A stretch of 64,000 nt of DNA from Staphylospora marina (GTDB lineage Bacteria; Bacillota; Bacilli; Thermoactinomycetales; Thermoactinomycetaceae): positions 538,001 through 602,000 of the forward strand of contig NZ_CP034118.1 in NCBI RefSeq assembly GCF_003856495.1, written 5' to 3'. Made by a program: the position numbers and the translations under genes. The notes beneath the pieces are model-generated. The model saw only the letters and a list, made by a program, of their open reading frames with translations. It was not told the origin of the DNA and made no database searches. Below, piece by piece: positions 27,869-29,865 of the stretch (the stretch's first letter is position 1; every line of letters starts with the position of its first letter).

Positions 27869-28543
27869 TCAGTAAAGAACCCGGCGGGCCACCATGAAGC
27901 GTTTTTTGTATTCGCTGTTCAGCGTGGAAATCACGACGTTGTTCTTGTATCCGAAGTTGTGAATGATTTTGTTGTCTCCGATGTAGATTCCGACGTGACC
28001 CACATCACCTGGCTTGTCAATCCAGAAGAACAGCAGGTCGCCTTTTTCAAACTGACCCCAAGCCACTTTTTGTCCGACTTTGGCCTGAGCGTCGTCATCC
28101 CGGTTGACCAGGGTCACGCCCACGTTGGCCAGCTTGTACACCAGGTAGGTGTAGCCGGAGCAGTCGGTTTTGATGATCGGGCCGGTTTCATCCCGTTGGG
28201 ACCAATGGGCATACTTCACTCTGTCTTTCAGGGAAATGGCGGTTTGCACCACTTTTTCCCGTTTGGCTTGCAGCGTGGACGGAGTGGAAGTTTGACCGGT
28301 TGCCGGTTGGGTGGTCGTCACGGGTTGAGCCGGCTTCGTCGGAGTTTGAGTGGAACCGGTGGCGTTTTCGACCGGGGTGGAACGGACGGTGGTGACTTTC
28401 TTCGGAACTTTCAGTCCAACTCGGTCGAAAATGTCCCCGACAGAAATGGCATGCGCTGTACCGGAGAGGGGGAGAGCGGTACCAACGAAAACGGCAGCCA
28501 TGGCAGTCACAGCCAGCTTCTTGAAGAAGTTCTGATTGCGCAT
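27869..28543 (-). CDS. secreted NlpC/P60 D,L-endopeptidase
   Basis: The product (224 residues) cleaves peptidoglycan stem peptides outside the cell. A Sec signal peptide ends with LSGTAHA near residue 32. A Thr/Pro/Gln-rich linker follows, then the NlpC/P60 domain with catalytic Cys in KTDCSGYT, His in DVGHVGIYIGD and the third polar residue in KIIHNFG. GGGAGGA precedes ATG 28543. An upstream sequence matching the WalR consensus suggests control by the essential WalRK two-component system, as for cwlO and lytE in Bacillus. Confidence 0.88.
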   Translation of the reverse strand: MRNQNFFKKLAVTAMAAVFVGTALPLSGTAHAISVGDIFDRVGLKVPKKVTTVRSTPVENATGSTQTPTKPAQPVTTTQPATGQTSTPSTLQAKREKVVQTAISLKDRVKYAHWSQRDETGPIIKTDCSGYTYLVYKLANVGVTLVNRDDDAQAKVGQKVAWGQFEKGDLLFFWIDKPGDVGHVGIYIGDNKIIHNFGYKNNVVISTLNSEYKKRFMVARRVLY

Positions 28544-28579
28544 CAAATCCTCCCTTTCGTTCTGGAATCGTTTTTCATT

Positions 28580-28596
28580 GTAACATACTATTTACA
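28580..28596 (-). promoter_or_regulatory. WalR-like box upstream of the endopeptidase gene
   Basis: On the minus strand TGTAAA-TAGTA-TGTTAC fits the WalR (YycF) consensus TGTWAH-N5-TGTWAH at every position. The second half overlaps a candidate -10 (TACAAT, 28577-28582), about 35 bases before the start codon. Confidence 0.6.
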
Positions 28597-28699
28597 GTAA
28601 TTTACTTCCAATATTTTCAATAAGATAGAAAAGTTGTTTTTGTATGTAAGAAATAAGTAGGTTCAAATCGTTTTTTGTGGTCGATTGCAAGTCGGTCCC

Positions 28700-29135
28700 T
28701 GTGAGTGCCAAAAGGAGCATAGCCGGGTGTGTTCCCTGTTTTGCCACTGCAATGAAGCGGAGCAGGGATCACACCCGGCAGTTTCGGTGAGACTCACCTG
28801 ATGAGCATCAACCAAACCAAAAGGAAGCCTGGCTGATCCCTGCGGAGTGCCTTTGCCACTGCAACGAAACGGAGCAGGGATCAGCCAGGCAGTTTCTGTG
28901 TGATTCACCTGATGAGCACTACCCAAACCAAAAGGAAGCTTGGGATGGTCTCTGCGAGTGCCTTTGCCACTGCAATGAAGCGGAGCAGGGATCAGCCAGG
29001 CAATTTCTGTGTGATTCACCGATGAGCTTCAACCAAACCAAAAGGAAGCTTGCTGATCCCTGCGGAGTGCCTTTGCCATCGCAATGAAACGAAGCAGGGA
29101 TCAGCCAGGCAGTTTCTGTGTGATTCATCAACCAA
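28700..29135. repeat. four-unit array of ~110-bp hairpin-forming repeats
   Basis: Four units spaced 112, 111 and 109 bp share a segment around TTGCCACTGCAATGAA. Each unit is bounded by inverted arms. In unit 2, GCCTGGCTGATCCCTGC (28827-28843) pairs perfectly over 17 bp with 28874-28890. In unit 1 the arms differ (GCCGGGTGTG at 28722 with CACACCCGGC at 28770) but still pair. Unit 4 keeps 12 bp and unit 3 has a degraded left arm. The period is not a multiple of three, so it is non-coding. The linker ACCAAACCAAAAGGAAGC is also conserved. The nature is unknown. Confidence 0.8.
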
Positions 29136-29164
29136 ATCCATCTGCGAGGAAAGACCCCCTGAAC

Positions 29165-29202
29165 GTCAAAGAGCGAGGCTTCAGACGACCTCGCTCTTTG
29201 AC
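29165..29202. terminator. long perfect hairpin downstream of the VOC gene
   Basis: GTCAAAGAGCGAGG (29165-29178) pairs with CCTCGCTCTTTGAC (29189-29202), 14 bp. It follows the 3' end of the minus-strand VOC gene but lacks a strong T run. Confidence 0.5.
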
Positions 29203-29271
29203 ATCCATGGAACCGGATGCATGCTCGTTTGTGTGTCGCTGGCTCCGGGAGCGTTCTTGAACAGTTTTCGA

Positions 29272-29694
29272 TCAGGAGCCGGATTCCTCGCTGTCCAGGT
29301 TGAGCTGCCAATGGATTCCGAATTTGTCCGTGACACTTCCGTAGAGCTTGCTCCAAAACGTTTCCTGCAACTCCAGATGGACCGTTCCGCCTTCTTTCAA
29401 CTTGGCGAACCAGTTTTTGAGATCCTCTGCGGACTTGCTCAGGAGCGCGATGGAGATGTTGTTGCCCACGGTGAACGGATGGTCCGGCCAGACATCGGAA
29501 AGCATCAGGGGGCTGCCGTTTACCGTCATCCTGGCGTGCAGGATCCAGTTTTTGATTCCCTCCGGGACGGGATGGTCTCCGGGAGCTTCACCGTAAGTCA
29601 TGATTTGCGGATTGGGGTCGCCGAACACATCCGCATAAAACTCGATCGCCTCGCGACATTTCCCTTGAAAGTTCAGATAAACGTTCAGCGGCAT
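29272..29694 (-). CDS. PhnB-like VOC (glyoxalase/bleomycin-resistance fold) protein
   Basis: This 140-residue protein has the PhnB-type pattern: MPLNVYLNFQGKCREAIEFY at the start, a central HARMTVNGSPLMLSDVWPD, and the C-terminal YGSVTDKFGIHWQLNLD. The superfamily uses paired beta-alpha-beta-beta-beta units to bind metals or ligands; PhnB-like members have no established reaction. ATG 29694 has AAAGGA 8 bases upstream and matches family starts; a longer open frame upstream is not protein-like. Confidence 0.82.
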   Translation of the reverse strand: MPLNVYLNFQGKCREAIEFYADVFGDPNPQIMTYGEAPGDHPVPEGIKNWILHARMTVNGSPLMLSDVWPDHPFTVGNNISIALLSKSAEDLKNWFAKLKEGGTVHLELQETFWSKLYGSVTDKFGIHWQLNLDSEESGS

Positions 29695-29865
29695 GGGGTT
29701 CATCCTTTCTGAAGGGATCAACTTCCCGTTGAGCGTTTCAGACGGGGCAGACATGGATCCGCGTCTTCCATAGGATTTGCTTTCATCCGTCTGATGATAC
29801 ACCCGCTTGCCGGAAAGTCGTGCGAACATATATTCTCATCGGCTCCCGAAATTCCCTTTTCGGGG

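Follow-up and report, generated by a model that had tools for sequence, protein, structure and literature searches.

The window analysed here is a stretch of 64,000 nt from the genome of Staphylospora marina (G000), in which positions 28722–29110 hold four hairpin units in tandem, with start-to-start spacings of 112, 111 and 109 (Table 1). The array sits roughly midway between the 5' end of a gene for an NlpC/P60 family protein and the 3' end of a gene for a glyoxalase-fold protein, and is antisense to both of these neighbours, which lie on the minus strand; no called gene covers it. The initial annotation of this DNA had reported four hairpin repeats of about 110 bp in which both arms change together between units 1 and 2 with loop and linker constant, and had offered a structured RNA, a protein-binding array or a mobile palindromic element as explanations. 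The four units (spacing 109–112), the arms quoted for units 1 and 2 and the joint change of both arms were all recovered, whereas the loop proved to vary by one or two bases. The separate hairpin between the array and the glyoxalase-like gene gave no match to the covariance model R1, falls outside the repeat family of the array, and is possibly an end-of-gene hairpin.

Table 1. The hairpin array and its surroundings, in coordinates of the window.
Feature	Position	Strand	Remarks
Flanking gene, NlpC/P60 family	27869..28546	-	PF00877, E 3.5e-17; 5' end towards array
Hairpin unit 1	28722..28779	+	Arms 28722-28738 / 28763-28779; R1 match 28717-28784, 32.1 bits
Linker, units 1-2	28780..28826	.	Repeated with changes between the remaining units
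Hairpin unit 2	28827..28890	+	Perfect 17-bp stem, 28827-28843 / 28874-28890; R1 64.6 bits
Hairpin unit 3	28938..29001	+	Left arm partly decayed; R1 48.7 bits
Hairpin unit 4	29048..29110	+	Shortened left arm; R1 61.5 bits
Separate hairpin	29157..29210	.	22-nt arms, 86% complementary; between array and glyoxalase-like gene
Flanking gene, glyoxalase-fold protein	29272..29829	-	PF06983 and PF00903; 3' end towards array, 162 bp distant

Relative to unit 2, unit 1 has 8 bases fewer on the left side of the tip, and unit 2 carries GGA/GGA next to its stem in place of GA/GA. Plus-strand RNA folding with short flanks included gave energies of -47.9, -46.8, -33.7 and -37.7 kcal/mol for units 1–4; the plus-strand folding z values were -6.4, -6.7, -2.7 and -4.1 (200 shuffles each), with 0, 0, 2 and 0 of the 200 shuffles folding equally well. 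The left arm of unit 3 contains mismatches and wobbles; its plus-strand fold uses wobble pairs, and its minus strand has no folding advantage over shuffles (z 0.38). The linkers are themselves repeats, 63–86% alike, where a CRISPR has unrelated spacers, and the initial annotation was right to set a CRISPR aside. In the outer arms, unit 1 differs from units 2–4 on both sides together. Given that this is the one clean arm change within the array, the broad evidence for coupled arms rests on copies outside the window.

The genome-wide search proposed in the initial annotation revealed a large family. A DNA search of the S. marina genome gave 45 matches, and R1 at E<=0.1 gave 110 raw matches, which include places matched on both strands. 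On the retrieved stretches of this genome, 122 R1 matches were reduced to 83 non-overlapping places with 75 unique sequences, and a cross-genus covariance model (R2) found 74 matches at E<=0.001. The consensus of the S. marina copies consists of a stem, GAGTGCC TTTGC-CATC-GCAA CGAAACGA, and the other arm. Copies are arranged singly, in tandem or in alternating orientation; at one locus (L031), eight plus-strand hairpins about 176 bp apart alternate with minus-strand hairpins, six of which were matched as places of their own, between two convergent genes. Ten copies lie among CRISPR-like arrays at 2.406–2.412 Mb (L033), with further copies beside similar CRISPR-like repeats in L034 and L037, the arrays and repeats being judged by eye. 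Twin copies with shared flanks (L039 and L099) indicate segmental duplication, and local together with segmental duplication looks like the recent mode of copy increase in this genome.

Two of these loci have a layout of their own. In L033 (G000:C1:2403000-2415000) and L034, the CRISPR-like arrays are split into several segments, each with a leader-like repeat, and one family hairpin stands between each array end and the next leader, an arrangement suggesting that leader and hairpin were repeatedly duplicated together. L099 (G000:C1:2627000-2635500) has a pair of hairpins, 1716 bp apart and with the same near flanks, each just 3' of a gene and 5' of a terminator-like hairpin; the pair is probably a duplicated gene end.

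To describe the pairing of the stems, three alignments were used. After eight chance hits had been struck by eye, alignment A1 was formed from 52 of 54 non-redundant S. marina hits, one chance hit and one truncated copy being left out; A2 comprises 31 rows of A1 picked as gap-free; and A3 comprises 32 rows, from 19 of 27 loci in relatives and 13 S. marina copies, with poor fits and near-duplicates left out. The stems of relatives are unrelated in sequence, as in GATGGGGGTGTACCGCT, GAGGATCTTGATC, GGAATTTGTTTTCCG and GGGTTGGGTTTTCCGC, each followed by its own complement. Despite this, 83.1% of cells in A3 (32 rows chosen for fit) are paired, and 19 of the 23 pairs have changed on both sides. The covariance analysis with homologues, likewise proposed initially, gave 184 double-change cells in these 32 chosen rows against 68.9 when shuffled (0 of 500 shuffles reached 184) and at most 113 at the best slide.

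Because the rows of A2 and A3 were selected for fit, pairing was re-tested with a pattern for the tip alone, with no stem required. In the S. marina stretches this pattern found 51 hits, which yielded 42 unique arm pairs. These were mispaired at 15.5% over 12 ungapped positions compared to 29.3% with arms shuffled between copies, and the lowest mispairing among 1000 such shuffles was 24.2%. Distinct S. marina copies differ from one another at 39–41% of arm sites, and two copies in L037 that share the same 5' flank have hairpins that differ only in one pair, A-T in one and G-C in the other, a compensated change. The cross-genus alignment and the tip-only test therefore support maintained pairing far beyond the window. 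Other copies exist and their arms are not decaying freely, the opposite of what the initial annotation had named as evidence against its proposal, although units 3 and 4 of the array are themselves partly decayed. Among stem wobbles, G.U outnumbers A.C by 79 to 58 in S. marina copies and by 73 to 30 in relatives, 26 of the 73 G.U cells in relatives falling in one column; this excess is a weak hint that the strand described here is the folding one.

Each unit consists of a stem of free sequence, about 13–17 bp long, closed by a conserved tip of 28 bases that reads GAGYGMC, a small hairpin, and GNRARCGR. Next to the stem the tip has GA opposite GA, followed by two standard pairs, another two odd pairs and a single C-G; most copies then have a small TTGC/GCAA hairpin. 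From established nucleic-acid chemistry, tandem sheared G.A pairs are expected at the GA-against-GA step beside the stem. A non-canonical pair of the tip joins the M of GAGYGMC to the first R of CGRARCGA, and its two bases switch together from C.A to A.G. Of 181 copies, 33 did not parse; in the 148 that did, C.A was found in 85, A.G in 51, A.A in 2 and C.G in none. The remaining 10, T.A in 8 and G.A in 2, all come from one relative, G037, and are probably misparses in which the pattern caught another GA, both G037 rows in A3 reading C.A. The C.A and A.G states occur together within each of G000, G039 and G011, and the tip pairs adjoining the odd pair also covary (G-C/A-T and T-A/C-G). The stand-alone structured RNA offered by the initial annotation found no counterpart in Rfam 15, which had no match in the window at the gathering score; at 28400-29500 its models gave weak microRNA-model matches only (E 0.16 or more), and in 10 further loci only tmRNA and tRNA were matched, both in L033.

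The family extends over the order of the host. R1 matched 14 of 41 genomes, and R2 at E<=0.001 matched 19 of 42 genomes in 13 of 27 genera, none of the genomes searched in the order being of the same genus as the host. R2 matches numbered 114 in G039, 74 in G000, 69 in G037, 62 in G041, 38 in G001, 17 each in G024 and G031, 14 in G038, 12 in G011 and at most 8 in the others; G039 searched alone gave 147. The distribution across genera is patchy, and the copies adjoin many different genes. Sampling of the class gave matches at E<=1e-4 in 19 of 398 genomes, with 12 candidates scored per genome, and 15 of the 19 belong to the order. The other four are G200, with four matches of which the one examined has a similar tip, G141 and G242, with related tips, and G096. 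The hairpins of G141 (L143) and G242 (L142) occur in other families of the class and combine very long stems with related tips; they may represent the same module in carriers more distantly related. A phage or plasmid origin was rejected, given that the array had no blastn match in viral or genome contig collections, from which near relatives are perhaps absent, and that the tip pattern had none in the viral contigs, a collection that may leave out near relatives. The single match of the tip pattern in the genome contigs was attributed to chance, as no matching stem flanks it.

In several relatives the hairpin is carried by larger elements. In G041 it occupies the centre of elements some 137 bp long, whose inverted ends are TAGAAGCGTTGTGA and its complement (type A), and this end motif was found 53/55 times in G039, 24/29 in G041 and 13/19 in G038, with 0 for the reversed motif. 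A second end type, TAGGGCGTGTCTGG (type B), occurs in G037 and in some G039 copies, and a third (type C) was seen by eye in G024. The hairpin is common to carriers with the unrelated end types A and B. Among 106 copies in G039, recognisable terminal inverted repeats were present on both sides of 55 and on at least one side of 95: 40 with type A on both sides, 5 with type B on both, 10 with one of each, 40 with one end and 11 with none (2–3 mismatches allowed; reversed-motif control 7 left, 0 right). Copies with both ends measure 131–212 bp, and the terminal inverted repeats of the G039 elements begin with TA. Some of the ten mixed-end copies are neighbouring elements, but two (2498434 and 2323159) resemble chimeras in which the hairpin is the joint.

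To look for an empty site, nine relatives were searched for the counterpart of a 951-bp stretch of G039 that includes the copy at 485739, and junctions were examined in G038, G036 and G032. In G038, with flanks 88% identical, query positions 1–387 and 552–951 match places 6 bases apart. The G039 copy corresponds to about 157 inserted bp flanked on either side by TA, at a point where G038 reads an uninterrupted TTTGAAGG with TG where TA was expected. No hairpin was present at the equivalent site in G036 and G032. The empty site in G038 indicates that the G039 element moved after the two congeners parted. Within the S. marina genome, all 83 places were free of the three end motifs to a distance of 120 bp, and a 12-nt inverted repeat begun by TA occurred at 0 of them (mean 0.55 with flanks shuffled), compared to 18 of 106 copies in G039 by the same generic test. 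Mobility is therefore demonstrated in G039 and not in the host genome. Of the three explanations first offered, the mobile palindromic element is the best, on the evidence of the G039 ends and the empty site, with mobility placed in a relative rather than in S. marina.

Other repeats accompany the hairpins in two of these genomes. G001 contains repeats of about 500–650 bp with more than one hairpin, and its loci L196–L205 show a dispersed repeat of this size, about 78–86% identical between copies, with two family hairpins about 145 bp apart. In G039 (L235, L236, L172 and L180), a second tandem repeat of about 50–60 bp (GGTCTCGCTATGCACTCACCAGCACAAGTCTCGCC...), variable in number, lies beside or inside hairpin elements.

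Comparison with known repeat classes was made against sources available in part, among them a 2025 survey of REPs (PMC12306157). REPs, in the available portion of their description, are dispersed extragenic palindromes of 20–40 bp with stems of 6–13 bp and a GTAG or CGTC tag, found as singles, opposite-orientation pairs and clusters (PMC3733652). The present hairpins resemble this picture of REPs and BIMEs in being dispersed extragenic palindromes with compensated stem changes, many of them downstream of genes, and in occurring as singles, pairs and clusters, opposite orientation included (PMC3733652). They differ in that the window units measure 58–64 bp against the 20–40 bp given for REPs in that portion (PMC3733652), that the family has a conserved, oddly paired tip, and that several copy-rich genomes have no Y1 gene. 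No GTAG or CGTC tag was seen by eye at the palindrome end in the alignments, the stem feet of relatives reading, for example, CGGAG or GGGA..GACC. On tag, size and RAYT alike, the hairpins depart from the definition of REPs. Lack of coding capacity and small size, by which MITEs are recognised, hold for the G039 carriers and for the gene-free window array; despite the MITE-like ends and size of those carriers and one empty site, the window array was not filed as a MITE because no terminal inverted repeats were seen around it.

The present family also resembles bcr1–bcr3 of Bacillus cereus (PMC3446304) and pneumococcal BOX, RUP and SPRITE (PMC3049150), short and strongly folding repeats between genes that frequently lie within untranslated regions; as described in the available parts of these sources, those families differ from it in lacking one tip shared over unrelated ends, unrelated stems and many genera. 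It likewise resembles the stem-loop containing sequence families, repeated stem-loops of bacterial genomes including Firmicutes, for which the portion available describes no tip shared across genera (PMC2267715). Correia, ERIC and Nezha are further small repeats, which can alter transcripts or be moved by host IS (PMC3049150, in part, and partly from general knowledge). Literature searches, with partial coverage of subscription journals, yielded no published family recognised as the present one.

The array is probably a local tandem cluster of REP/MITE-like extragenic palindromic repeats with a structurally constrained tip. In such a scheme the hairpin would spread inside non-autonomous elements moved in trans and would persist as insertions between genes are tolerated, and selection would preserve the hairpin folded as a single strand, with RNA of untranslated regions as its likeliest form and single-stranded DNA during replication or transposition as the alternative. 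What is new is the conserved non-canonical tip, common to carriers with unrelated ends and unrelated stems.

The position of the copies relative to genes bears on a different explanation, in which the hairpin is a structured RNA element acting in cis in untranslated regions, through stability, processing or protein binding at the tip, its spread being secondary. All 28 loci examined in the S. marina genome lie outside called genes (up to 20 nt of overlap allowed), and 27, the exception being L036, are faced by the 3' end of a called gene on at least one side, a count that includes weak gene calls and distances up to 986 bp. All 106 copies of G039 are intergenic (up to 25 nt of overlap allowed) in a sequence that is 79% coding, and in 80 shorter loci from seven relatives, with the gene model of the host genome, none of 98 copies fell in a gene, 77 being without a called gene on one side. 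Codirectional gaps contain 69 of the G039 copies, divergent gaps 25 and convergent gaps 12. Copies in codirectional gaps are sense in 52 cases and antisense in 17, and those in divergent gaps are sense to the nearer gene in 17 of 25 with only 11 of 25 on the leading strand; by the host gene model, the sense to antisense counts are 4/0 in G041 and 3/1 in G031. Together with the covariation of both stem and tip, the G.U excess in the stems, and several isolated S. marina copies seen by eye between a stop codon and a terminator-like hairpin, these counts favour an RNA acting in cis. However, with the replichore border placed at 1.85 Mb (about 1.77–1.95 Mb by GC skew), the leading strand carries 74 of the 106 copies in G039, a share similar to that of genes (563 of 741); for BOX, RUP and SPRITE, the part of the source available gives 61–63% on the leading strand, mirroring the coding bias (PMC3049150). 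Codirectional genes on the leading strand have 50 sense and 14 antisense copies and those on the lagging strand only 2 and 3, five cases that do not separate transcription from replication, and convergent gaps have 10 of 12 copies on the leading strand and 6 of 12 sense to the nearer gene. Copy orientation tracks genes and replication alike, and informative cases are few. The concentration of G.U cells of relatives in one column, the lack of an Rfam family, the many different adjoining genes and the patchy occurrence over genera also weigh against a cis-acting RNA, which we consider rather unlikely. For the window array, which is opposite in strand to its flanking genes, a role as sense RNA is not supported.

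A family of transcription terminators or insulators, in which the stem and a T-run on the opposite strand end transcription, was suggested by the many S. marina copies with an A-run just 5' of the stem, which is a T-run on the other strand (the 5' flank is A-rich and the 3' flank has no consensus), and by some copies seen by eye at the far end of CRISPR-like arrays. It is very unlikely, given that the window units have no adjacent T-run, the mark of an intrinsic terminator being one directly after the stem-loop, that scanning turned up 2 terminator-like sites where shuffled sequence gave 1.5, the site at 28714-28735 lying in the left flank and arm of unit 1, that the examined copies of G031, G037 and G041 have no adjacent A-run, and that a terminator does not need a conserved, oddly paired tip. 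Long palindromes favour template switching, and units 1 and 2 differ in their arms by a block change, so that arms might be coupled by copying, through template switching that corrects quasi-palindromes, in place of selection on the fold. Such correction would tend to push the tip to full Watson-Crick pairing, whereas its G.A and C.A/A.G pairs are kept across genera, and the L037 twins differ by one compensated pair; coupling by copying is accordingly judged unlikely. Classical REPs moved by a RAYT (Y1 transposase) would share the intergenic arrangement noted above and are the least probable explanation, a most improbable one. Y1_Tnp (PF01797) at E<=0.001 was absent from seven copy-bearing genomes (G000, G015, G027, G031, G034, G038 and G039) and present in five in which R2 found no copies (G003, G005, G008, G010 and G029), eight Y1 loci with up to 1.5 kb on each side had no R2 match at E<=1, and the alignments have no REP tag. 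A RAYT or IS200 mobiliser was rejected, as Y1_Tnp does not track copy number and none of the eight Y1 loci holds the hairpin.

A bolder reading is that the tip is a portable binding module for a putative protein of these bacteria, captured by several unrelated mobile elements that differ in ends and stems, and exchanged by recombination at the hairpin. This is offered tentatively and is on balance improbable; if true, the captured tip would aid the spread of the elements or keep their insertion from harming the host transcript. The usual definition of an extragenic palindrome rests on its ends or on conservation of the entire sequence. In the present family, lineages share neither stem nor ends but a 28-base, oddly paired tip, which gives a handle, as a covariance model or a pull-down bait, on why repeats of REP/MITE type keep their fold. 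It also makes it simple to annotate these repeats, which number up to about 150 in a genome of the group.

The search for a transposase was extended to DDE_3 (IS630), which was present in 6 of 20 genomes (G027, G031, G038, G039, G040 and G041) and absent from G000, G001, G011, G024, G034 and G037. Four DDE_3 loci had no type A or B ends, and 20 retrieved stretches, one of them with its reading frames listed, showed no autonomous element bearing type A ends. The mobiliser may have been lost. Near DDE_3 genes, a type-C-like end (TAGTGCCCC...) occurs at position 2552 of L295 (G039) and position 315 of L296 (G027), with 2 and 3 mismatches respectively, and may point to the transposase responsible for moving some of the carriers.
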